From a virus, in the IMG/VR virus record IMGVR_UViG_3300030389_001893, positions 1 through 32,852 of that record: DNA of 32,852 nucleotides; one strand, written 5' to 3'. A program made the translations under genes and the position numbers. The notes under the pieces were generated by a model that was given only the letters and a program-made list of their open reading frames with translations, had not been told where the DNA came from and ran no database searches. This document shows positions 7,543 to 19,903 of the stretch, piece after piece. Position 1 is the first letter of the stretch, and the number at the start of each line of letters is the position of its first letter.

Positions 7543-7581
7543 ATATTAGGCCATTTTCTAATTCTTTGTCAATCTAAGATT
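7543..7581 (-). promoter_or_regulatory. Promoter of DUF2958 gene with AATCTWAGATT palindrome
   Basis: The -35 box TTGACA (7567-7572) and -10 box TAATAT (7543-7548) are separated by 18 bp ending in GGCC. The 11-bp palindrome 7571-7581 overlaps the upstream edge of the -35 box. The same architecture recurs at 9454-9492 and 13699-13738, so this looks like a regulated promoter class. Confidence 0.75.
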
Positions 7582-7593
7582 AAAATAAAATAA

Positions 7594-7618
7594 CCCCCTA
7601 AAATTATAATTAAGGGGG
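7594..7618 (-). terminator. Intrinsic terminator after the small-gene string
   Basis: A 6-bp GC-rich stem (AGGGGG/CCCCCT, minus-strand reading with arms reversed) encloses an AT-rich loop. On the minus strand it is followed by TTATTTTATTTT. It ends the unit whose last gene is at 7673-8035 and lies just ahead of the DUF2958 promoter. Confidence 0.75.
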
Positions 7619-7625
7619 CTACATA

Positions 7626-7648
7626 CACACTAAGGGGTATTAAGTGTG
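7626..7648. repeat. Hairpin with CACACT/AGTGTG arms
   Basis: A 6-bp perfect inverted repeat with an 11-base loop, between the stop of the 7673 gene and the terminator at 7594-7618. Together they give two stacked hairpins in the 3' end of the transcript. It may protect the mRNA 3' end or form part of a small RNA; no open frame occupies it. Confidence 0.4.
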
Positions 7649-7672
7649 ATACTAATTTAATTATAGTACTTA

Positions 7673-8035
7673 TTAGAGACCAAAATTCTTTTTTAACTGT
7701 TTAATATACTCGTGGCGTTCTTCAGGTGTTTTATTATTCCAATCTTCGTTCTCTCGATCAGTAACTAGATCTTCTACTATTTGGTCAGAAAATACTAATT
7801 CTTCTGATACAACGCCTGTATTTAGCTTATACATATATAAATCGGACTTATGTTGACAACGTTCTAATTTACATTTTTCACCAATGTATCTTGTCTTTGC
7901 GTATTTTTCTTCGTGTTCTTTGTTAAGTTCACTAATACGATTTCTAGCCGATAAACCAGTTTCAGCTATAAGATCAAGTACACAATGCCACCTACCGTCA
8001 CTAAGAATCTGTTGAATCGTATCAGCGTAACTCAT
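7673..8035 (-). CDS. Small winged-HTH-like protein
   Basis: A 120-residue protein. The N-terminal part (SYADTIQQILSDGRWHCVLD, then ETGLSARNRISELNKE) reads like a winged helix-turn-helix: a starter helix, a recognition helix with SARNRISEL, and a wing with paired Cys (CKLERCQ). It could be a regulator of the phage's own promoters. The remainder is acidic and helical. Its ATG overlaps the previous stop by 4 bases. The function is inferred from fold pattern only. Confidence 0.6.
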   Translation of the reverse strand: MSYADTIQQILSDGRWHCVLDLIAETGLSARNRISELNKEHEEKYAKTRYIGEKCKLERCQHKSDLYMYKLNTGVVSEELVFSDQIVEDLVTDRENEDWNNKTPEERHEYIKQLKKNFGL

Positions 8036-8295
8036 CTATCTGTACCACGTTTTAAAAACCAACCCTCTGTTAACGCAGTCTGCAATACATCTTTAGGTAT
8101 TGCTATTGCATGTTCAGGCTCATTATCTTTATAAACTATAAAGACCATTTCTGCAGTTTTACCGTCATCAGTAGGTAAAAAACCAAATTGTCCAATGCAT
8201 GTTTCTTCTTTTGGTTTTTGATTAGCTTTTACTAAAACTTGCGTCCACAAAAGTTTGTTTTCGTTAGCTTGATATGTAATTTTATCTTGATTCAT
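8032..8295 (-). CDS. Hypothetical protein (87 aa)
   Basis: An unrecognised 87-residue protein. It is predominantly beta-strand in appearance (KLLWTQVLVKANQ, AEMVFIVYKDNE, HAIAIPKDVL), with no transmembrane segment or cysteine cluster. It overlaps the upstream membrane-protein gene by 14 bases and the downstream HTH gene by 4, so all three are co-translated in the early small-gene string. Confidence 0.7.
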   Translation of the reverse strand: MNQDKITYQANENKLLWTQVLVKANQKPKEETCIGQFGFLPTDDGKTAEMVFIVYKDNEPEHAIAIPKDVLQTALTEGWFLKRGTDR

Positions 8296-8500
8296 TGCTA
8301 AACATGTTTTCTGACGTCAGCTCTTCGCCGTCTTGTAGTCTTTGGTAAAAGTCTGTATTGATATACTCTTTATCTTCAAACTCAAACCCTAAGAGCTTTG
8401 CTACCCAGATTGCAACTTCACCGAGTAAAGCGCCTACTAAAAAAATACCAACAAAACCCAACAGTACAATAAATACGTCTGGGTTATCATATTCTCTCAT
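8282..8500 (-). CDS. Small single-pass membrane protein (72 aa)
   Basis: One strong hydrophobic helix at about residues 9-37 (VFIVLLGFVGIFLVGALLGE, continuing AIWVAKLLGF). It is preceded by a short charged N-terminus and followed by an acidic soluble tail. It has an AGAAAGGAC ribosome-binding region and ATGA overlap with the preceding small gene. Early-expressed small phage membrane proteins often target host envelope functions or exclusion, but nothing here names a role. Confidence 0.7.
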   Translation of the reverse strand: MREYDNPDVFIVLLGFVGIFLVGALLGEVAIWVAKLLGFEFEDKEYINTDFYQRLQDGEELTSENMFSNESR

Positions 8501-8625
8501 TTTTTGTCCTTTCTCTTTTTTAGTAATTGTTCTATATTATCTTTAATATCTTGAGCAGAATTAATATCATAAATATCTTTACGTATTTCATTACCGTCTA
8601 TATCAGTAAATATAATGTCAGGCAT
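8497..8625 (-). CDS. Small hypothetical protein (42 aa)
   Basis: The frame begins MPDIIFTDIDGNEIRKDIYD and ends with a very basic segment (LLKKRKDKK). The start is coupled as TAATG to the previous stop, and the stop overlaps the next start as ATGA. It fills the interval exactly, which supports it being a gene. No domain is recognised. Confidence 0.6.
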   Translation of the reverse strand: MPDIIFTDIDGNEIRKDIYDINSAQDIKDNIEQLLKKRKDKK

Positions 8626-8936
8626 TAGAAGGGTACCTCTGCGCCGTCAATAGCTAGATCATGTTCAATGTCTGCTATCTCAACATCATGCTCTAAAGAT
8701 ACAAGATATTCAAGTATCTCTTTTAAGAAAAAACGTTTTTCATCATATCTAGCAAATGCTATATCTGACCAGTTATGTATGCTAACTCTTTTGTTAACTT
8801 CGTTTTTTTCCATTTCGTCTTTTGTCTTCTCTATTAAAGTAGATAAGACTTCTTCTGCACTAGGGTAATCTTTAAACACTCGATCTTGTAAGGGTTTATA
8901 TTTTACTCTACGTGTGTTAGTTTTAATTTCGCTCAT
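8625..8936 (-). CDS. Hypothetical protein (103 aa)
   Basis: An unrecognised 103-residue soluble protein. It has a basic N-terminus (MSEIKTNTRRVKYKPLQDR), a charged helical middle and an acidic end. It starts 8 bases after an AGAAAGG ribosome-binding site. A partial copy of the regulatory palindrome lies 27-36 bases upstream, overlapping the preceding gene's stop, so it may have its own regulated promoter as well as read-through. Confidence 0.7.
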   Translation of the reverse strand: MSEIKTNTRRVKYKPLQDRVFKDYPSAEEVLSTLIEKTKDEMEKNEVNKRVSIHNWSDIAFARYDEKRFFLKEILEYLVSLEHDVEIADIEHDLAIDGAEVPF

Positions 8937-8962
8937 TGTTTTTTCCTTTCTCTTATATTTTA

Positions 8963-8972
8963 AATCTAAGAT
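8963..8972. promoter_or_regulatory. Partial copy of AATCTWAGATT palindrome (10 of 11)
   Basis: AATCTAAGAT(A) lies across the stop codon of the zinc-ribbon gene and upstream of the 8936 start. There is no clear TTGACA beside it. It may be a weaker operator of the same regulon, or chance in AT-rich DNA. Confidence 0.35.
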
Positions 8973-9130
8973 ACGACTATTTTACGTCCATAAGCAGGGT
9001 TTTCTAAGAAACAAAACTTACAGATTGCGTCAAATTCTTCTGTGTTTGCATTAAAAAGAACATGTGCAGTTTTTCTATGTAGAGGGCGATTGCAGTTATA
9101 ACAGTTGCCCTCTGTGTTTGGGTTACTCAT
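8966..9130 (-). CDS. Zinc-ribbon microprotein (54 aa)
   Basis: The peptide carries two CxxC knuckles, CYNC (residues 10-13) and CKFC (37-40), separated by 23 residues, a typical zinc-ribbon layout. The ATG overlaps the upstream stop as TAATG at 9130. It begins MSNPNTEGNCYNCNR. Such ribbons commonly bind nucleic acid or act as transcription adaptors, but the partner is unknown. It is easily missed because of its length. Confidence 0.75.
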   Translation of the reverse strand: MSNPNTEGNCYNCNRPLHRKTAHVLFNANTEEFDAICKFCFLENPAYGRKIVVS

Positions 9131-9447
9131 TATTTACTACCTCTGTTGTAAAACTCTCTTGCACGTCTTCTATCATCAACTTTATTAATATGGTTAAGAT
9201 ATTGAATTACTTCCCAAATACCCTCGTTATCAATGTTTGAATCCCAGTTATCGTCTAATAAGGTAATTGTTGTTTCATGAGCATTAGATAATTCATTTAA
9301 GAGTGTCATTAAACCCTCAACTCTACCTGCTGCCTCAATTTTTCCAACTTGTCTTTTTTGTACTCTAAATGTATCTATTGCGTCATTTATAGTGTTAACT
9401 AAAATAGAATCTCTCTCGATCATTTTTATGCCTTTCTCATTGTTCAT
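9130..9447 (-). CDS. Hypothetical protein (105 or 97 aa), possibly leaderless
   Basis: An unrecognised, mostly helical soluble protein (INDAIDTFRVQKRQVGKIEA; IWEVIQYLNHINKVDDRRR). Two starts are plausible. The ATG at 9447 lies exactly 6 bases after the -10 box, so it would be a leaderless start. The ATG at 9423 has GAGAAAGG correctly spaced upstream. It is first in the early small-gene string running to 7673, under the palindrome-linked promoter. Confidence 0.7.
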   Translation of the reverse strand: MNNEKGIKMIERDSILVNTINDAIDTFRVQKRQVGKIEAAGRVEGLMTLLNELSNAHETTITLLDDNWDSNIDNEGIWEVIQYLNHINKVDDRRRAREFYNRGSK

Positions 9448-9453
9448 ATAAGA

Positions 9454-9492
9454 ATATTAGGCCACTTTTGTAATATATGTCAATCTTAGATT
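9454..9492 (-). promoter_or_regulatory. Promoter of the early small-gene string, with palindrome
   Basis: The -35 TTGACA (9478-9483) and -10 TAATAT (9454-9459) have an 18-bp spacer ending in GTGGCC. The palindrome AATCTTAGATT (9482-9492) abuts and overlaps the -35. The bases after the -10 (TCTTATAT) match those of the 7543 promoter. Confidence 0.75.
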
Positions 9493-9500
9493 AAAGTATT

Positions 9501-9791
9501 TTATAAATAAATTTTAAAGCCATTATCTAAAGAAGTTAGAAAATGTAACAAATCTTCAGCGTCTGGTAGCTCTATATATGCTAAATCTTTATGTGATGTA
9601 ATAACTGAAACTTCAAACTCATTATTTAGATTTAAGACAATAAAATATAAATCATCTTCATATCTAAAAGCAAGTCCACCTTGTGTATCTACCATTGGTA
9701 GTACTTCTTCTAAATCTAGTTTGTTTAGTTCGGGGTATTTAGTTAAATAAAAGGCCACTGCTAAAGCACCCCAGTTTACTTCATTTATCAT
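9501..9791 (-). CDS. Hypothetical protein (96 aa)
   Basis: An unrecognised acidic 96-residue protein with alternating hydrophobic strands (LAFRYEDDLYFIVLNLNNEF; VSVITSHKDLAYIELPD) suggesting a compact alpha/beta fold. It is the last gene of the replication unit that starts at 11218 and follows the initiator-like gene after 12 bases. The ribosome-binding site is poor, so it may depend on coupling. Confidence 0.65.
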   Translation of the reverse strand: MINEVNWGALAVAFYLTKYPELNKLDLEEVLPMVDTQGGLAFRYEDDLYFIVLNLNNEFEVSVITSHKDLAYIELPDAEDLLHFLTSLDNGFKIYL

Positions 9792-9803
9792 ATCTATATA
9801 TTA

Positions 9804-10550
9804 CTATTCTTCTTTGACTTTTTCCTTTTCTGCTTTGCAAAATCTACAATGAAAAATTACATCAAGATCAACCCAACCGTGACCCTCTTTTTCGCAATCT
9901 CTTTGTTTTGGCGGTTTATCTTTTTCGTACATCTCACCAAGTAACGTCCAGTTTTTAGATAATGCAAAAGGCGTCAGCGTGATCTTCGGCCATTTCTTTT
10001 TGTAGATAAATACTCTCTCTTTTATTTCTTCTGAAGTTACATCAATCTCTGACAAGTCTTTAGCAACTTTATTAAAAGCAGATATTTCGTTTTTGGTTTT
10101 AGGTGTCCACAAGTGTTCACATAAAGCTAAATATATTTTTCCTTTATCTGAATCTTGCTTGTAAGTATGACTTTGGTTAAATGGCTTTGGTTTGTGTGTC
10201 ATATCTGAACTACCCCCCTGTTCATATTTGGTATGGGGTGGGGTGTCAGATTTAAAAGCAGGGTTTAATTTTAAGATATAAAGATTAGAAGTTTGCCCTT
10301 TATCTTCTAAGTAACGTTCTTTAACTTCGATAGCACCAATGTCTTTTAATTCTTTGATCGCTCTTTTTACTGATGAACTAGATTTATTACATTTAGTTCC
10401 AATAGTGGCTATTGAAGGCCAACATGTACCGTCATCTTTATCTGCAAATCTGTATAGTGCGGAGTATACACGAAGTGCATTATCAGATACGTTAGATTCA
10501 ATCAGCCACTCTGGAACAATAGAAAAATAAAACTCTGATACAATTTGCAT
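9804..10550 (-). CDS. Replication initiator-like HTH protein with C-terminal zinc knuckle
   Basis: A 248-residue protein. Residues 20-100 form a winged HTH of the kind found in phage and plasmid initiators (NALRVYSALYRFADKDDGTC; PSIATIGTKCNKSSSSVKRA; LKDIGAIEVKERY). A flexible Pro/Ser linker follows (about 100-130), then a helical region resembling DnaD/helicase-loader parts (150-215). It ends with a Cys/His cluster (CEKEGH ... HCRFC) likely to bind zinc. It lies directly after a Rad52-like gene, which supports a role in initiating replication with host polymerase, like lambda O. The exact family is uncertain. Confidence 0.7.
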   Translation of the reverse strand: MQIVSEFYFSIVPEWLIESNVSDNALRVYSALYRFADKDDGTCWPSIATIGTKCNKSSSSVKRAIKELKDIGAIEVKERYLEDKGQTSNLYILKLNPAFKSDTPPHTKYEQGGSSDMTHKPKPFNQSHTYKQDSDKGKIYLALCEHLWTPKTKNEISAFNKVAKDLSEIDVTSEEIKERVFIYKKKWPKITLTPFALSKNWTLLGEMYEKDKPPKQRDCEKEGHGWVDLDVIFHCRFCKAEKEKVKEE

Positions 10551-10559
10551 TGCAGAAGT

Positions 10560-11027
10560 TTATTCTTCTTCTGCGACAATTTCTGTTTTTTCTAAGTAGT
10601 TAGATAACCAAGCGTCTGTGTCGTATAGTTCTATACCAACACCCATACGCATGGCTGCTCTTTTTAAACCGTCAGACATACACTCTTTTATTCTCTGACC
10701 GTTGTTCTGTACTTTGTTTGGGTTGTCATGGAAAAATGGCTTATCACACATGCCGTAATCCTCTCTTGTGATTAAATTACCGTCAACTGTTCCTGACAAT
10801 GTAACTTTGACACCTGTTACAAAACTTCTTGCAACACCGTTAACATCTTCGATCTTGTCATAAATAATTTCGTCTGTTGTTATAAGCAAGTCTGGTATTA
10901 AAGCAATTAGCTTTTGAGTTACTTGCGTATGCTCTACATAATCAATATCGCCAAACCCTTTATTAACTTTTTTTACAAAAGTTTTATTCCATGGTTTGCT
11001 TATTTGTATTTGTGTATTTCGATTCAT
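10560..11027 (-). CDS. Rad52-like single-strand annealing protein
   Basis: A 155-residue protein whose C-terminal half has the Rad52/Sak pattern: VTGVKVTLSGTVDG strands, then QRIKECMSDGLKRAAMRMGV (111-130), where DGLKRAAM is the conserved helix following the beta sheet. It would anneal ssDNA during recombination-dependent replication. The start has a perfect GGAGG ribosome-binding site and overlaps the HTH stop as ATGA. It is followed by the initiator-like gene. It is shorter than typical Rad52 cores (about 180), so the family call is moderate. Confidence 0.65.
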   Translation of the reverse strand: MNRNTQIQISKPWNKTFVKKVNKGFGDIDYVEHTQVTQKLIALIPDLLITTDEIIYDKIEDVNGVARSFVTGVKVTLSGTVDGNLITREDYGMCDKPFFHDNPNKVQNNGQRIKECMSDGLKRAAMRMGVGIELYDTDAWLSNYLEKTEIVAEEE

Positions 11028-11218
11028 TGTTTCCTCCTATTATCAGTTATACCGACTTTATTTATAAAGTCAGATATTTCTTTTGCGTCCCATAAAGGAC
11101 CACATTTTAAAACTTTTTTTGGTGCAGGTAATTTACCATGATGTTTTAAACTAGCTACTTTTTGCCTAGTTACATTTAACATCTTGGCTATTTCTGCAAC
11201 GCCTACTGGATCAAACAT
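11024..11218 (-). CDS. Small HTH DNA-binding protein (excisionase/MerR-like)
   Basis: A 64-residue protein starting MFDPVGVAEIAKMLNVTRQK. The ATG at 11218 has GAAAGGAAG upstream and is preferred to an in-frame GTG at 11281, which would lie inside the leader hairpin. VAEIAKMLNVTRQKVASLKH is a clear helix-turn-helix, followed by a wing (GKLPAPKKVLKCGPLWDAKE), as in AlpA/excisionase/HTH_17 proteins. It heads the recombination/replication unit and sits behind a palindrome operator, so it may be autoregulatory. With no integrase in the genome, an excisionase role is unlikely. Confidence 0.8.
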   Translation of the reverse strand: MFDPVGVAEIAKMLNVTRQKVASLKHHGKLPAPKKVLKCGPLWDAKEISDFINKVGITDNRRKQ

Positions 11219-11239
11219 TTTCTTCCTTTCTGCACAATG

Positions 11240-11279
11240 GGGGGTTGTAGGTGCATTTCCATGAGAAAGGACAACCCCC
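11240..11279 (-). promoter_or_regulatory. Leader hairpin upstream of the HTH gene
   Basis: A 9-bp GC-rich perfect stem (GGGGGTTGT / ACAACCCCC) with a 22-base loop, in the 5' leader. A smaller TTTC/GAAA stem can form inside the loop. It is followed by the ribosome-binding site rather than a T-run, so it is not a normal terminator. Possible roles are mRNA stabilisation or protein binding. Confidence 0.6.
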
Positions 11280-11296
11280 ACCGTGCTTAATTAATT

Positions 11297-11313
11297 ATTA
11301 TAATCTTAGATTA
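11297..11313 (-). promoter_or_regulatory. Promoter/operator of the replication unit
   Basis: A 13-bp palindrome TAATCTTAGATTA (11301-11313) overlaps a perfect TATAAT -10 box (11297-11302, minus strand). No good -35 is seen at 16-18 bp. Here the palindrome lies in the spacer against the -10 rather than at the -35 as in other copies, so a bound protein would block RNA polymerase directly. Confidence 0.6.
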
Positions 11314-11327
11314 AGACAATATTTATG

Positions 11328-11417
11328 TTACTCACAATCTGGGCAAACACGAGTATTATTTTCGTTCCAGTAAGGGGTTAAACAGTCTTCGCAGTAACTC
11401 ACGTATACATCACTCAT
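11328..11417 (-). CDS. Zinc-ribbon microprotein (29 aa)
   Basis: It encodes MSDVYVSYCEDCLTPYWNEN followed by NTRVCPDCE. Two CxxC knuckles 15 residues apart make a minimal zinc ribbon. The ATG overlaps the glycosyltransferase stop by 8 bases. The ribosome-binding site is weak. Support is the two-knuckle pattern and its place at the end of the ParB/glycosyltransferase unit. Confidence 0.6.
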   Translation of the reverse strand: MSDVYVSYCEDCLTPYWNENNTRVCPDCE

Positions 11418-12291
11418 TAAATTTATCTACATCTTTTTCTAATTCTTTATTTTCTACGTTAGCTAATTTCTGAATTTTCATTTTTATTTTCTTGTTTTGT
11501 ATTTCTTCCCAGTTTAAATCTTTACGTCTAATTAATTTTTGGTCGAAGTGTTGCCAGTTAAATTTAATTCTATGTTGAGGTCTACCATATCTTTTGCTTA
11601 CTTCAACAACATAAGGCCAAGCCTCTTGTAGTTCTCTCGCCATGCGTAACCTACCGTCACCAATATAAAGCTCGTCTGCATTACCACCTTTCATTTTAAG
11701 AGTGGCGTTCTTCTCAATCATAAAAGCATTTATTAAAACTGTACACCAGTCCTTACTTAGAGCTTGTAGGCATAAATCGGTGTCTTCGTTGTATCTACCT
11801 CGCCAACGAAAGTCTAAATCGTTTTTAATAAGTAAGTTACTATATACTCTGCAGTTCTGATAAAAAGGTTTTTTATTGTTAGGTGTTACAAAAAATTTAT
11901 AGTTCATACCACTAATAGCAATATTTTCGTACCTATCTGTAAATTCTTCTACTGCACTTATTCCGATATTACCATTAACAACTATTCTTCTACCGTTCCA
12001 AAAATATTTTATATTGTGTATGTTGTCATCAAAACACCAATGCCTTTTGTAGCCTTTTTCTAATGCGTGTTCCCAAATAAAATTTCTTACAGGAATTGAC
12101 CCTTTACCTAAATTACTAAATGGTGTTACCATTAATAATTCTTTATCATAGTACTTAGCGTATTCGTCATATTCTTGTGGCTCTATAACAAGTTTAAATT
12201 TAACTTTATCTTTTAACATAAAGTTTGCAGTATGTCCTATATCTGCTCTACCTTTAGATATAACGTATATTGGATATTTAGGTTTCTTCAT
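11410..12291 (-). CDS. Glycosyltransferase, TET-associated (TAGT)-like
   Basis: A 293-residue GT-A-like protein. It has the opening YPIYVISKGRADIGHT, then VIEPQEYDEY, a GSIPVRNFIWEHALEKG helix, HWCFDDN with an aspartate motif (88-90) likely to bind the nucleotide sugar and metal, and NEDTDLCLQAL (169-179) as the acceptor-side acidic motif. This order matches TET/JBP-associated glycosyltransferases that decorate modified phage bases. It is co-translated with a ParB-like protein (14-base overlap), a pairing seen in base-modification islands. No oxygenase gene is visible in this genome, so the substrate base, or a non-DNA target, is open. Confidence 0.75.
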   Translation of the reverse strand: MKKPKYPIYVISKGRADIGHTANFMLKDKVKFKLVIEPQEYDEYAKYYDKELLMVTPFSNLGKGSIPVRNFIWEHALEKGYKRHWCFDDNIHNIKYFWNGRRIVVNGNIGISAVEEFTDRYENIAISGMNYKFFVTPNNKKPFYQNCRVYSNLLIKNDLDFRWRGRYNEDTDLCLQALSKDWCTVLINAFMIEKNATLKMKGGNADELYIGDGRLRMARELQEAWPYVVEVSKRYGRPQHRIKFNWQHFDQKLIRRKDLNWEEIQNKKIKMKIQKLANVENKELEKDVDKFNE

Positions 12292-12928
12292 CTACAAATT
12301 TAACATTACGTATATCTTCATTGCGTTTTTCTGGGTACCAAAACTTCTGATCTGTTGCAGTTTGATAATTTATGTGTGGATTATCTAACAAGTCCATAAA
12401 GTTTTCTCTATCTTCTTCAGATCGAAAATACACAATTGATTTTATATACTTCTCTCTAGGTTGAAAGTCAGTCATACCAACCCACTCTGCAGCCTCGTCT
12501 AAATCTTGTATCTCATCATTACTTCTAGTTGTATAAACTAATGCAGATAATTGATCTTCGTTAAAACCAGTACCAGTTAAATCGTAATCTTCATCAAGTA
12601 TGTCTTTAAGTATCTCGCTTAGTTCTCTATCGTCAACCATCGCAAGATTACTAATCTCGTTGTCTGAAGTTAAAACTTTTAATGCTTGTGTGCTATTTGA
12701 TTCTATATCTAATCTTATTACAGGTACTTTGTGTTTACCCATAGACTTACACGCTTGAACTACGCCATGACCTGCAAGTATTGTATTATCTGTTGCTACA
12801 ACTACATTACGATAAAAGCCGTGTTCTTCAATAGATTTTATAATATGTTCTATTTGTTGTTCGGGGTGTTGTTTGTAGTTACGTGGGTGTGGTTTTAATA
12901 AATTAATGTCAACGTTTTCTATATTCAT
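12278..12928 (-). CDS. ParB-like (ParB/sulfiredoxin fold) domain protein
   Basis: A 216-residue protein. Residues 5-75 match the ParB N-terminal nuclease/CTPase-like fold: LLKPHPRNYKQHPEQQIEHI, then SIEEHGFYRNVVV, and the box ILAGHGVVQACKSMGKHKVP. The rest (LKVLTSDNEISNLAMVDDRE; DEDYDLTGTGFNEDQL) is typical of phage ParB-like proteins that accompany DNA methylases or base-modification enzymes rather than of partition ParB. It heads a unit with the glycosyltransferase. Its start lies in an inverted repeat (12921-12949). Confidence 0.85.
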   Translation of the reverse strand: MNIENVDINLLKPHPRNYKQHPEQQIEHIIKSIEEHGFYRNVVVATDNTILAGHGVVQACKSMGKHKVPVIRLDIESNSTQALKVLTSDNEISNLAMVDDRELSEILKDILDEDYDLTGTGFNEDQLSALVYTTRSNDEIQDLDEAAEWVGMTDFQPREKYIKSIVYFRSEEDRENFMDLLDNPHINYQTATDQKFWYPEKRNEDIRNVKFVDEET

Positions 12929-12992
12929 AAATGCTCTTTTTATGAATATTGTACCAAATTAATGGTAAAATGTTTGTATAAACGTTCGTTTA
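12921..12992 (-). promoter_or_regulatory. Promoter and operators of the ParB/glycosyltransferase unit
   Basis: The -10 candidate is TACAAT (12948-12953); the -35 is weak. An 11-bp perfect inverted repeat (arms 12921-12931 and 12939-12949, 7-base centre) covers the -10 edge, the expected transcription start and the ATG at 12928. A second dyad, TAAACG-2-CGTTTA (12979-12992), lies upstream. Both look like protein-binding sites. If transcription begins upstream of the arms, the first repeat would instead hide the ATG in an RNA hairpin with the AAGAG ribosome-binding site in its loop. Confidence 0.55.
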
Positions 12993-13004
12993 CGCCCTGT
13001 TATC

Positions 13005-13032
13005 AAAAATGGTCTAGCAATAGACCATTTTT
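13005..13032 (-). terminator. Intrinsic terminator overlapping a stop codon
   Basis: A 12-bp perfect stem (AAAAATGGTCTA / TAGACCATTTTT) with a GCAA loop, ending in T5 on both strands. The stop codon of the 13031 gene lies in its base. It ends the two-gene unit from the 13692 start and may act in both directions. Confidence 0.88.
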
Positions 13033-13282
13033 ATGGGCGTATATCTAAAGCCCACTCATAATAATAAGCATTATGTACACGCTTGTAATTACCACAGTCG
13101 CAATGCATTGTACGAATTGGAAACCCCTCTTGACAAAATACATAGGCATATCTTCTTATCATTTCACTCTCATTAGTGCAAATAAACTCATAATTACATA
13201 ATCTCTTAAATATTTCGCCCTTATAATCTCTAAATGGATTTTTATACTTTGGTTGTATTCTTTGTGCTTTTATGTATGTCAT
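13031..13282 (-). CDS. Hypothetical protein (83 aa)
   Basis: A basic, tyrosine-rich protein (IKAQRIQPKYKNPFRDYKGE) with four cysteines, including a C-terminal CDCGNYKRVHNAYYYEW segment that might bind metal together with the earlier Cys. No family is recognised. It has a good AAAGGGG ribosome-binding site and starts 3 bases after the preceding stop. Confidence 0.7.
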   Translation of the reverse strand: MTYIKAQRIQPKYKNPFRDYKGEIFKRLCNYEFICTNESEMIRRYAYVFCQEGFPIRTMHCDCGNYKRVHNAYYYEWALDIRP

Positions 13283-13284
13283 TA

Positions 13285-13692
13285 TTACCCCTTTCGATAT
13301 TCGTCTGTTATGACACCTCTGATCTCTGCTAATTCTTGCATTTTGTTTTTCATGTATTCGTATAATCTTCTATCGCAACTGACTTCAGTCCATTCATCTC
13401 TGCCCTCAACCATCCACTCTGCGTACCCAAAGTTGTGATCAAGTACTGTATAAACAACTAACCACTCTTGTAAAGTATTTATTGTGTATAAAGTTACGTA
13501 ACCTCTACCAACTCTTTTTGTGTATGAATCAAGCGAACTATAAATATTGTTTATGTCAATATCAGTAACATCACCCATGTCATAATCTGTAAAATTATTT
13601 TGATAATGTTCAAAGTCTGTTTCATCTACAACACGCATTGCAGACGCTTTGATTTCTATTTGATTCGGTTTAAGTGTTTTTTTGTTGTTCAC
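13285..13692 (-). CDS. Hypothetical protein (135 aa) with leaderless GTG start
   Basis: The GTG at 13692 lies 6 bases after a TATACT -10 box, so the mRNA probably begins at or next to the start codon; no ribosome-binding site exists. The protein is acidic with aromatic-rich strands (GYVTLYTINTLQEWLVVYTV; AEWMVEGRDEWTEVSCDRRL). No domain is recognised. It is first in a two-gene unit ended by the 13005-13032 terminator. Confidence 0.72.
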   Translation of the reverse strand: MNNKKTLKPNQIEIKASAMRVVDETDFEHYQNNFTDYDMGDVTDIDINNIYSSLDSYTKRVGRGYVTLYTINTLQEWLVVYTVLDHNFGYAEWMVEGRDEWTEVSCDRRLYEYMKNKMQELAEIRGVITDEYRKG

Positions 13693-13698
13693 AAAATT

Positions 13699-13738
13699 AG
13701 TATAGGCCAGTTGTTAAAAGTTTGTCAAATCTTAGATT
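13699..13738 (-). promoter_or_regulatory. Promoter with palindrome driving the 13692/13282 unit
   Basis: The -35 TTGACA (13723-13728) and -10 TATACT (13699-13704) have an 18-bp spacer ending in CTGGCC. AATCTTAGATT (13728-13738) touches the -35. It is the third member of the shared promoter class and the one with the best -10. Confidence 0.8.
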
Positions 13739-13747
13739 AAAATAGGT

Positions 13748-14152
13748 TTAATATTTCCAACAAAACTTGCTAGGTTTCCAGTGGTGTGAGCCGTCATTAT
13801 AAAATAACCATGACGCAACTGCAGTAGAAACATTTACGTTGGTTCGATCAGAAGTAATTTTTAATTTTGGTGTTAACCATGCCCATGTATTGTCATTGAA
13901 TTGCCACAAGCCAACATCTTTTGTGCCGTCTTTGTTTACACCAACTGCAGTATTCTTACCTCTTGATTCACACCAAGAAATACGAAGTGCAGTTTCTAAA
14001 TCTTCTTTTTTAAAGTATTCAGAGAATAAAGGTATATATTCTTCCATAGCTACAATGATTTCGTTCCTATCTCTACACTCTTTATAATCTGTAAGAATCT
14101 CTGGTGTAATAGGGGATAGGAAAGTACAAGCAATTAAAACTTCAGCTATCAA
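13748..14152 (-). CDS. Endolysin-type muralytic enzyme (lysozyme/transglycosylase-like fold)
   Basis: A 134-residue protein from a TTG start with AGAGG four bases upstream. A short hydrophobic N-terminus (MIAEVLIACTFLSPIT) may be an export signal. ALRISWCESRGKNTAVG places the predicted catalytic Glu62 in the SLT/Rpf-like context, followed by KDVGLWQFNDNTW (79-90) and a C-terminal HHWKPSKFCW. It would cleave peptidoglycan. It is encoded with the phosphoesterase in the early region, far from the holin, so a role in lysis is likely but not proven by context. Confidence 0.8.
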   Translation of the reverse strand: MIAEVLIACTFLSPITPEILTDYKECRDRNEIIVAMEEYIPLFSEYFKKEDLETALRISWCESRGKNTAVGVNKDGTKDVGLWQFNDNTWAWLTPKLKITSDRTNVNVSTAVASWLFYNDGSHHWKPSKFCWKY

Positions 14153-14161
14153 ATAACCTCT

Positions 14162-14302
14162 TTAAGTAACTTTTTCTTTTACGAGTTCATCAAGTGTTGT
14201 TATACCAACTTTTAAGTCTTCAGAACTATACACACCGTCATTGTTGTATATAATTCTCGCTTTGATTCCGTCGTTTTCAATACCAACTAATTTTTTAGCC
14301 AT
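14162..14302 (-). CDS. Small hypothetical protein (46 aa)
   Basis: It begins MAKKLVGIENDGIKARIIYN and ends LDELVKEKVT, a small beta-hairpin-plus-helix pattern. It has a well-spaced AGTAGG ribosome-binding site and lies between the phosphoesterase and muralytic genes with short gaps. An imperfect palindrome copy (14322-14332) lies just upstream. No family is recognised. Confidence 0.6.
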   Translation of the reverse strand: MAKKLVGIENDGIKARIIYNNDGVYSSEDLKVGITTLDELVKEKVT

Positions 14303-14330
14303 ATATACCTACTAACATTTTAATCTAATA

Positions 14331-15413
14331 TTAAGACTTTTCCAACTCTAAATTAATCAAATATTCAGATGTAACGCCTAAACCTTTTTTACAGAACAAT
14401 AAATATTGACATGGTCGACCCATAGACGCTAATTGTTCTTGTGCAAAAGTATTATATGATTCAGTAGAACCATTGATCCAAAGTCTTACATCATTAATGT
14501 ATTGTGTGTTTGGTGTGTGGTAATGACCTGCACAAGCATAATTAAAATCTTCCATAAGCCCTGCACTTGCAAGAGCTTTCCAACCTAATATCTTTTTACC
14601 AAATCCATACCATGGAAAACCACCAAAACCCCTGACTTGGTCGCCATGAAACAAAAAGAATTTACATCTTTCGCCTAAATCTGCAACTGTATACCAGTTT
14701 CTCTCGCCCTCACCCTCTGGTACATTAAAGTTTATTCTTTTGTTGCCCTCATAAGCCATTTCAACAATTTTGTATAACATGCGGTCAGCGTTGGTCTCTG
14801 GATCATAAGAACGCCTACTTTTACCACCTAAAGCGCCATGATTACCTATAACAAAATGACAATCTACTTCCTCAAACTCTGCTAATAGTTTATTTAAAAA
14901 GCCAATCATGATACGAGGTCCGTCAATAGTAACTTGTCTATATAAAGAAGAATCAATTAAATGTTCTTGTCCGGGAAATATTAATTCACCCTCTACAATG
15001 TCGCCTAAAGCAAATACACATACTTTTTTTACTGGGTGGCTTTTTCTCTGTATTCTTGCAATCTCAATTATTTTATCTGCGTAATATAAAACTCTTTGTT
15101 CTGCGATTTCTGAATTATAATCGGGTGTTACTTTTGCTAATTGAATATCGCTAAATAATGCAATTGCTACTTCTTCTTTGGCTTTTCTAGTATCTTTTGG
15201 TGGCGGTTTTACCTTAGGTATCTCTAATAAGCCTAAATTGTCCTTAACTGCCGTATAAACTGCGTTTACGAGATCAATTTTCTTTTGCTTGGCTTTCTCT
15301 AGCGATTTTAAAATACGTCTATTTGTGGCCTTTAAATCGTCATTTTCTTCAATTATCTTTTGGTAGTCTTCTATTGCAAAATCATCAAAACTTTCAGTTT
15401 GTTTTTTCGCCAT
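14331..15413 (-). CDS. Calcineurin-like metallophosphoesterase
   Basis: A 360-residue protein; the ATG at 15413 with AGGTG upstream is preferred to the GTG at 15419. The N-terminal 65 residues are coiled coil. Metal-binding motifs follow in order: ALFSDIQ (Asp89), ALGDIVEG (Asp138), GNHG (190-193), LFHGD (256-258) and AGHYH (295-299). The first motif has Gln where most members have His (DxH). Such enzymes hydrolyse phosphodiesters and occur in marine phages, possibly in nucleotide or DNA processing. It overlaps the upstream HTH gene by 20 bases. Confidence 0.85.
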   Translation of the reverse strand: MAKKQTESFDDFAIEDYQKIIEENDDLKATNRRILKSLEKAKQKKIDLVNAVYTAVKDNLGLLEIPKVKPPPKDTRKAKEEVAIALFSDIQLAKVTPDYNSEIAEQRVLYYADKIIEIARIQRKSHPVKKVCVFALGDIVEGELIFPGQEHLIDSSLYRQVTIDGPRIMIGFLNKLLAEFEEVDCHFVIGNHGALGGKSRRSYDPETNADRMLYKIVEMAYEGNKRINFNVPEGEGERNWYTVADLGERCKFFLFHGDQVRGFGGFPWYGFGKKILGWKALASAGLMEDFNYACAGHYHTPNTQYINDVRLWINGSTESYNTFAQEQLASMGRPCQYLLFCKKGLGVTSEYLINLELEKS

Positions 15414-15633
15414 ATTCACCTAGATAATCTGATATTGTTTTAAATGCTAAAGACCAACCACATGATTCTTGCAACCATTTAACAATTACTTTACGTGGGT
15501 AACCCTCTGCAAGTTTCTCTAAAGCAATCTTAAACTGCTCTTGTCTTTCAGGTGTTTTTTCAAAATAGGGTTTACGAGTTGATTCCAGTAATTCTGGATT
15601 GTTTTTTAAAAATTCTTCAAATGCTTTTTGCAT
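15394..15633 (-). CDS. Small HTH-like protein
   Basis: A 79-residue protein from ATG 15633. The C-terminal half (EKLAEGYPRKVIVKWLQES, then GWSLAFKTISDYLGEYG) reads like a helix-turn-helix of the kind found in phage regulators and small terminases. There is no ribosome-binding site; the regulatory palindrome ends 5 bases before the ATG, so initiation may be near-leaderless and self-repression is possible. It heads the unit with the phosphoesterase and muralytic genes. Confidence 0.7.
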   Translation of the reverse strand: MQKAFEEFLKNNPELLESTRKPYFEKTPERQEQFKIALEKLAEGYPRKVIVKWLQESCGWSLAFKTISDYLGEYGEKTN

Positions 15634-15637
15634 ATTC

Positions 15638-15655
15638 AATCTAAGATTATCTTAG
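15638..15655. promoter_or_regulatory. Overlapping palindromes upstream of the HTH gene (candidate operator)
   Basis: AATCTAAGATT (15638-15648) overlaps a 15-bp perfect palindrome CTAAGATTATCTTAG (15641-15655), so half-sites are repeated three times. A weak promoter (ATGACA at 15671-15676, TAAGAT at 15649-15654, 16-bp spacer) would place the palindrome over the -10 and start. It looks like a double operator. Confidence 0.6.
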
Positions 15656-19387: not shown

Positions 19388-19903
19388 TTAAGCTCGAATA
19401 CCATATAAAACAAATCTACCAGTTGAAATGTTACCACTTGTTAATGTAAAATTTACACCGTCTGTAGCTTGATTTTCTGTAAGTACTGCACCGCCTTGGA
19501 ATCCTCTTAAATTACTTCCGTCGTTTCTAATGCTTGCCTCTAAAGAACAAAAACTAAACTCACCAGAATTACTAAAATTATATAAATAAAAAATACCATT
19601 CATAATTTCATTACCTGCCGTACCTATAGTTCCTATATTTATATGGTCTTGGTTTGTATCTTGTATATCTCCAAAACCTGTATCTGCTCTAAGATTTTTA
19701 AAAGCTCTGTCATAATTACTTGAAGTGTCAGCACTACCGCTTACAGTAAATCTAAGTTTTATTGAAATAGAATCCGTATCTGGTAAAACACCACTCATAA
19801 TTAGTTTATAAACATTAAAAGTACTGTTAATTCCTGTTAAAGTTACCGAGCTTACTGCTGAAGTTACATTATTTTCTGATATTCTAACTAAACTACCACT
19901 CAT
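19388..19903 (-). CDS. Tail fibre paralog, second set, member C
   Basis: A 171-residue beta-rich protein starting MSGSLVRISENNVTSAVSSV; the ATG at 19903 overlaps the previous stop as ATGA and has GGAA upstream. It shares with the 22330-22839 protein the opening SAVSSVTLTGI, the central YDRAFKNLRADTGF and IFYLYNF, and the end RFVLYGI. It is a predicted component of the distal tail adhesin. The six related proteins (19388-20984, 22330-23987) probably share one beta-sandwich fold. Confidence 0.72.
   Translation of the reverse strand: MSGSLVRISENNVTSAVSSVTLTGINSTFNVYKLIMSGVLPDTDSISIKLRFTVSGSADTSSNYDRAFKNLRADTGFGDIQDTNQDHINIGTIGTAGNEIMNGIFYLYNFSNSGEFSFCSLEASIRNDGSNLRGFQGGAVLTENQATDGVNFTLTSGNISTGRFVLYGIRA

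Follow-up and report, generated by a model that had tools for sequence, protein, structure and literature searches.

A short palindrome fixed at non-structural promoters of an uncultured phage family as a likely operator of a phage-encoded repressor

The palindrome AATCTWAGATT recurs along a phage genome, which raises the question of what it does at the promoters that carry it and which protein reads it. The window, that is, the whole 32.9-kb virus record analyzed here, has its main genes on the minus strand and contains five exact copies of the palindrome, while dinucleotide shuffles gave 0.01 copies on average and one at most, which rules out chance as their origin. All five lie wholly inside the 8.1% of the window that is non-coding (0.081^5 = 3e-6), and every gene near them is read from the minus strand. 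The initial annotation had reported these five copies, and we confirmed each of them at its position. Copies with up to two mismatches number 28 against 23 expected, a count not above chance, and near copies were therefore judged by conservation instead. By this measure the two near copies reported earlier, AATCTAAGATA at 8963 and AATCTAATATT at 14322, both hold up, their positions being conserved in relatives; a third copy with one mismatch, at 19749, falls within a coding gene and probably arose by chance. The picture of operator-like sites distributed over the phage at non-structural promoters, with no copies in structural genes, is thus supported, and the genes under the palindrome-bearing promoters, being non-structural, are presumably early. 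A literature search on the motif returned unrelated papers only.

The sites are tied to recognizable promoters (Table 1). At 7571, 9482, and 13728, the layout described at the outset, in which TTGACA is followed by an 18-bp spacer with ggcc and then TAATAT or TATACT, was found exactly. The two remaining sites had been thought to cover the -10 box, and here the description had to be revised: at 11302 the palindrome only abuts the -10 box, its last T being common to TATAAT, and at 15638 TAAGAT, in the best-scoring promoter match, immediately precedes the palindrome, which covers the start-site region instead. The 11302 site is a candidate for autoregulation of the HTH gene, and the terminator-like hairpin at 7594..7617 is a candidate insulator of the 7571 unit. 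Within the spacers, the GGCC directly before the -10 box is conserved in close relatives at the promoters 7543-7572 and 9454-9483, the rest of the spacer being variable; at the 13728 promoter it is present in the window and missing from its relatives. A leaderless ATG at 9447 and a leaderless GTG at 13692 are both probable, and an ATG or GTG about 7 bases past the -10 box is also found in the contigs L142, L194, and L197, which suggests that several genes are expressed from leaderless mRNAs.

Table 1 Palindromes and associated features in the window.
Feature	Position	Strand	Remarks
Exact palindrome	7571..7581	-	Final TT opens the -35 box TTGACA (7572-7567); -10 box TAATAT (7548-7543)
Exact palindrome	9482..9492	-	Overlaps the -35 box TTGACA (9483-9478); -10 box TAATAT (9459-9454)
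Exact palindrome	13728..13738	-	Final T opens the -35 box TTGACA (13728-13723); -10 box TATACT (13704-13699)
Exact palindrome	11302..11312	-	Final T opens the -10 box TATAAT (11302-11297); HTH gene downstream
Exact palindrome	15638..15648	-	Lies over the start-site region of gene 15394-15633, with ATGACA (15676-15671) and TAAGAT (15654-15649) as the promoter match
Degenerate site AATATTAGATT	14322..14332	-	Adjoins a -10 box, TAAAAT
Degenerate site TATCTTAGATT	8963..8973	-	Kept in two close relatives only
Terminator-like hairpin	7594..7617	-	Directly upstream of the 7571 promoter
64-residue BldC/excisionase-like winged-helix protein	11024..11218	-	Proposed repressor
Leader hairpin of the proposed repressor gene	11232..11286	-	Loop has CCTTTCTC; hand-registered stems

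Support for a function of these sites also comes from relatives fetched by protein similarity. A motif equally frequent in coding regions, or not conserved upstream of orthologs, would have spoken against the regulon; apart from being non-coding in five of five cases, the sites are kept upstream of orthologous genes. The site after the 9501 gene (the 9482 position) is exact in all seven clade members that have this gene, the 7571 site, after the 7673 gene, occupies the same place in L001, L025, L013, and L016, and the 13728 site, after the lysozyme-like gene 13748, is exact in L005, L030, L032, and L033, while the 11302 site at the HTH gene promoter is exact in L001 and L002 and degenerate in L030 and L008. 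At the start of the 15394 gene (the 15638 position), the site often has one mismatch in relatives and reads AA(C/A)CTTAGATT in L005, L029, L032, L033, and L105. The position of the degenerate 14322 site holds an exact AATCTTAGATT in the mid clade (L036/L206, L039, L040, and L204), and that of the 8963 site holds TATCTWAGATT in L099 and L025. The motif is relaxed to TAATCnnnGATTA in relatives with 56-59% terminase identity; in relatives at 56-61%, an unbiased search for over-represented palindromes returned AATC-n3-GATT as the top de novo palindrome (72 copies versus 6.5 expected) and the extended TAATC-n3-GATTA with 35 copies versus 0.67 expected. All 17 sites of the window's clade have the TWA center, as against 14 of 77 in the distant clade; if the binder evolves along with the phage, such a clade-specific operator center is what one would expect. 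Co-variation between the recognition helix and the operator center looks suggestive, and we set it aside because it is confounded with phylogeny. Two AT-rich relatives (L034 and L207, 29% GC) contain no AATCn3GATT in 21 kb, though both retain both HTH genes, and half-sites alone are visible in them at some of the corresponding places.

Where the operator sits on the promoter, as judged with a simple sigma-70 score, bears on how it might act. In the window's clade, 13 of 17 sites are centered at -39 to -41, so that TTGACA, or a box much like it, begins with the last T or TT of the palindrome. In other clades, the center met most often at promoters that score well is -17, where the palindrome ends on the T that opens the -10 box. 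The -10 placement is also seen in the window, at 11302 and at the degenerate 14322 site, so a single genome uses both. Spacers at well-scoring promoters are mostly 16-18 bp, with 19 bp in some assignments. Both placements overlap core elements of near-consensus promoters, and the -35 boxes of the -40 placement match the consensus, as would suit a repressor; nothing here supports activation. Of the position-dependent dual control proposed in the initial annotation, only the repressing part therefore fits, consensus -35 boxes and spacers of 16-18 bp arguing against the activating part. MerR-activated promoters have spacers of 19-20 bp, and activation of this type, with the operator inside an over-long spacer, is disfavored by the spacers found here. 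Activation from the -40 sites combined with repression from the -10 sites would have in its favor that a center at -40 to -41, where sites of the window's clade lie, is typical of class II activators, as for lambda CI at PRM, and that the placement is sharply fixed. We nevertheless consider it very improbable, since the -40 promoters, with a consensus TTGACA and a near-consensus -10 box, should need no activator, the palindrome and the -35 box have bases in common, and the register varies by one base among promoters. Repression, on the other hand, accords with sites that hold a fixed place on core promoters in several units and that relatives have kept, as in a phage repressor-operator regulon.

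Three HTH proteins, encoded at 11024, 15394, and 7673, had been named as candidate binders, and their distribution in relatives favors the 11024 protein, whose family is found in all motif-bearing clades. The mid and distant clades carry the palindrome and lack the 7673 gene, and the L193/L194/L200 clade, which retains the motif, lacks the 15394 gene. In L194 (1046-2248), a different calcineurin-like phosphoesterase stands in the place of the exonuclease and 15394 is missing, a natural gene exchange; the predicted fold of the 15394 product gave no significant match. When long contigs were selected by the exonuclease only, at least two sites occurred in 6 of 7 with the 11024 gene versus 1 of 25 without it. 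In exonuclease relatives without the gene the motif is depleted (2 sites versus 9.3 expected); the groups set against them had been selected for carrying the 11024 gene. The lone exception without the gene, L038, ends before the locus, and three terminase-selected contigs with sites and no 11024 gene (L115, L124, and L159) begin only a few kb upstream of the terminase; all four look like contigs cut before the 11024 locus. L034 and L207, which encode the 11024 family yet contain no site, count against this protein as the binder. A site precedes the 11024-family gene, or the operon containing it, in most clades; for the mid and distant clades its distance from the stop codon of the HTH gene is 600-1150 bp, so autoregulation there would act through the operon.

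Another binder would change this reading. The palindrome could be the operator of a host transcription factor, through which host physiology would gate the early promoters of the phage, and we regard this as unlikely, while giving it more weight than any other alternative binder. That the same core recurs in phages at only 56-59% terminase identity would fit such a factor, as would the absence of sites from L034 and L207, which, at 29% GC, may have another host. The clade-specific operator center and the depletion in exonuclease-sharing relatives that lack the 11024 gene speak against it, and so does a scan of all viral contigs, in which intergenic operator-promoter combinations were all in the 11024-encoding family except for one in L254 that is likely due to chance. 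Such family-restricted combinations argue against a host factor common to unrelated phages. Outside the family, the operator together with -35 and -10 boxes was almost always a single match inside a long reading frame, and none of the contigs concerned encodes the 11024 protein. A different phage protein, for example the replication-initiator-like product of 9804 or the 15394 product, might bind instead and link transcription to replication, which seems to us improbable. The 9804 gene resembles the 11024 gene in its distribution, being found in almost every contig that bears the motif and in none of the exonuclease-only group, and it matches replication initiation families having helix-turn-helix domains; for 15394, the site covers the gene start in the window and in close relatives, but the gene is absent from the one motif-keeping clade named above. 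The usual targets of replication initiators are clustered iterons at one origin, whereas the sites here are dispersed single copies fixed to promoters, and 9804 is the weaker rival as compared with 11024.

The 11024 protein is itself of a kind that might read such sites. Its start had been placed at 11281, and the most likely start is instead the ATG at 11218, behind the Shine-Dalgarno sequence AGAAAGGA. An AlphaFold model of the protein (pLDDT 82) has as its best fold match BldC bound to DNA (6ama; Foldseek probability 1.00, TM-score 0.65-0.71, identity about 20%, with a weak E-value of 0.05), and the top PDB matches are BldC-DNA and an excisionase with probabilities of 0.99-1.00 and E-values of only 0.05, pointing to a MerR/BldC-type winged-helix fold. 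PHROG excisionase families match the protein at E 3e-5, and it scores 19.7 bits against Pfam HTH_17, below the curated cut-off of 27. Similarly to BldC (68 versus 64 residues), it has neither a coiled-coil dimerization domain nor an effector domain in the predicted fold, and the two have an actinobacterial connection. BldC of Streptomyces binds direct repeats as head-to-tail multimers (PMC5859096), whereas the conserved sites here are single short palindromes; the likeness therefore lies in the fold and not in the kind of site. Upstream of the gene, the leader hairpin ends one base before the Shine-Dalgarno sequence, and its loop is complementary to the Shine-Dalgarno sequences of the phage (GAGAAAGG sites). 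A hairpin is found at this position in nine relatives with differing stem sequences. In the hand-registered stems 81 of 81 cells pair versus 62 in shuffles, a count biased by the picking of the arms as pairs, and automatic folding of the leader alignment recovered four pairs only, which is accounted for by misaligned stems; the hairpin has no Rfam match. It possibly provides translational control.

Taken together, the sites, their positions on promoters, their conservation, and their co-occurrence with the 11024 gene lead us, on sequence comparison and with modest confidence, to favor a model in which a repressor encoded by the phage, likely the 11024-11218 protein, uses AATCTWAGATT as its operator and shuts early units including its own promoter. 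We infer the identity of the binder, the pairing of its subunits, repression, and its timing as follows. On phage entry, host polymerase would fire the near-consensus early promoters. The 11024 protein would then act as a dimer or as a pair assembled on DNA, with one subunit per half-site, and the bound repressor would block polymerase at the -35 box at 7571, 9482, and 13728 and in the spacer against the -10 box at 11302 and 14322. As the protein accumulates, the early units would be closed together, and the protein would repress its own promoter at 11302. No integrase of the tyrosine or serine recombinase type (PF00589 and PF00239) was found in 18 records, which may be incomplete, and we therefore read the system as early-gene shut-off with autoregulation and not as lysogeny; the phage is apparently non-integrating, and maintenance of lysogeny by this system is unlikely. 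It is tempting to speculate further, and only tentatively, that a BldC/excisionase-type protein, of a kind known for direct repeats, has become a palindrome-reading early repressor in a large non-integrating clade, that its operator has moved between the -35 edge and the -10 edge across clades while some units kept their positions, and that the conserved anti-Shine-Dalgarno hairpin of its own mRNA adds a second control layer.

The role proposed for the 11024 protein resembles that of lambda Cro, a small early repressor that binds over core promoter elements and controls its own promoter; the DNA-binding fold is different, and a CI-like partner or lysogeny switch was not found here. Phage-wide short repeated sites in promoters and short intergenic spaces, read by one phage regulator in an actinobacterial phage group, are also a feature of the operators and stoperators of cluster A mycobacteriophages. 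The L5-type sites of these temperate phages are asymmetric 13-mers, present at more than 20 per genome, and the repressor is a monomer with two DNA-binding domains (PMC9283540). Here, in contrast, about 5-7 palindromes, five of them exact, in 32.9 kb lie at promoters only, in place of many asymmetric 13-bp sites aligned with transcription, and the integration functions that would mark a temperate immunity repressor were found in none of the 18 possibly incomplete records. The SAS/ESAS elements of cluster K are likewise conserved repeats upstream of some non-structural genes and found by comparison only, but they are asymmetric, lie 3-7 bp from start codons, and have a proposed role in translation initiation (PMC3203893), whereas the palindromes here are tied to -35 and -10 boxes.

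As to the host, a search of bacterial and archaeal genomes with the terminase gave no near relative, the best match being 48% in a Chloroflexota MAG; the exonuclease is 44% identical to that of Streptomyces phage Dagobah and the capsid protein matches Arthrobacter phages, which together point to actinobacteria. A glucosyltransferase of the beta-glucosyl-HMC type (11410-12928; PHROG 842, E 5e-39) adjoins a ParB/methyltransferase-like protein, and this pair may point to modified DNA. Since uncultured phages lack a host in which to test them, next to nothing is known of their gene regulation. In this family of dozens of contigs, comparison alone yields an operator together with the promoters that carry it and one likely regulator, as well as a testable rule for operator docking, and it offers a case of an operator that changes its place on the promoter while its target units are kept.
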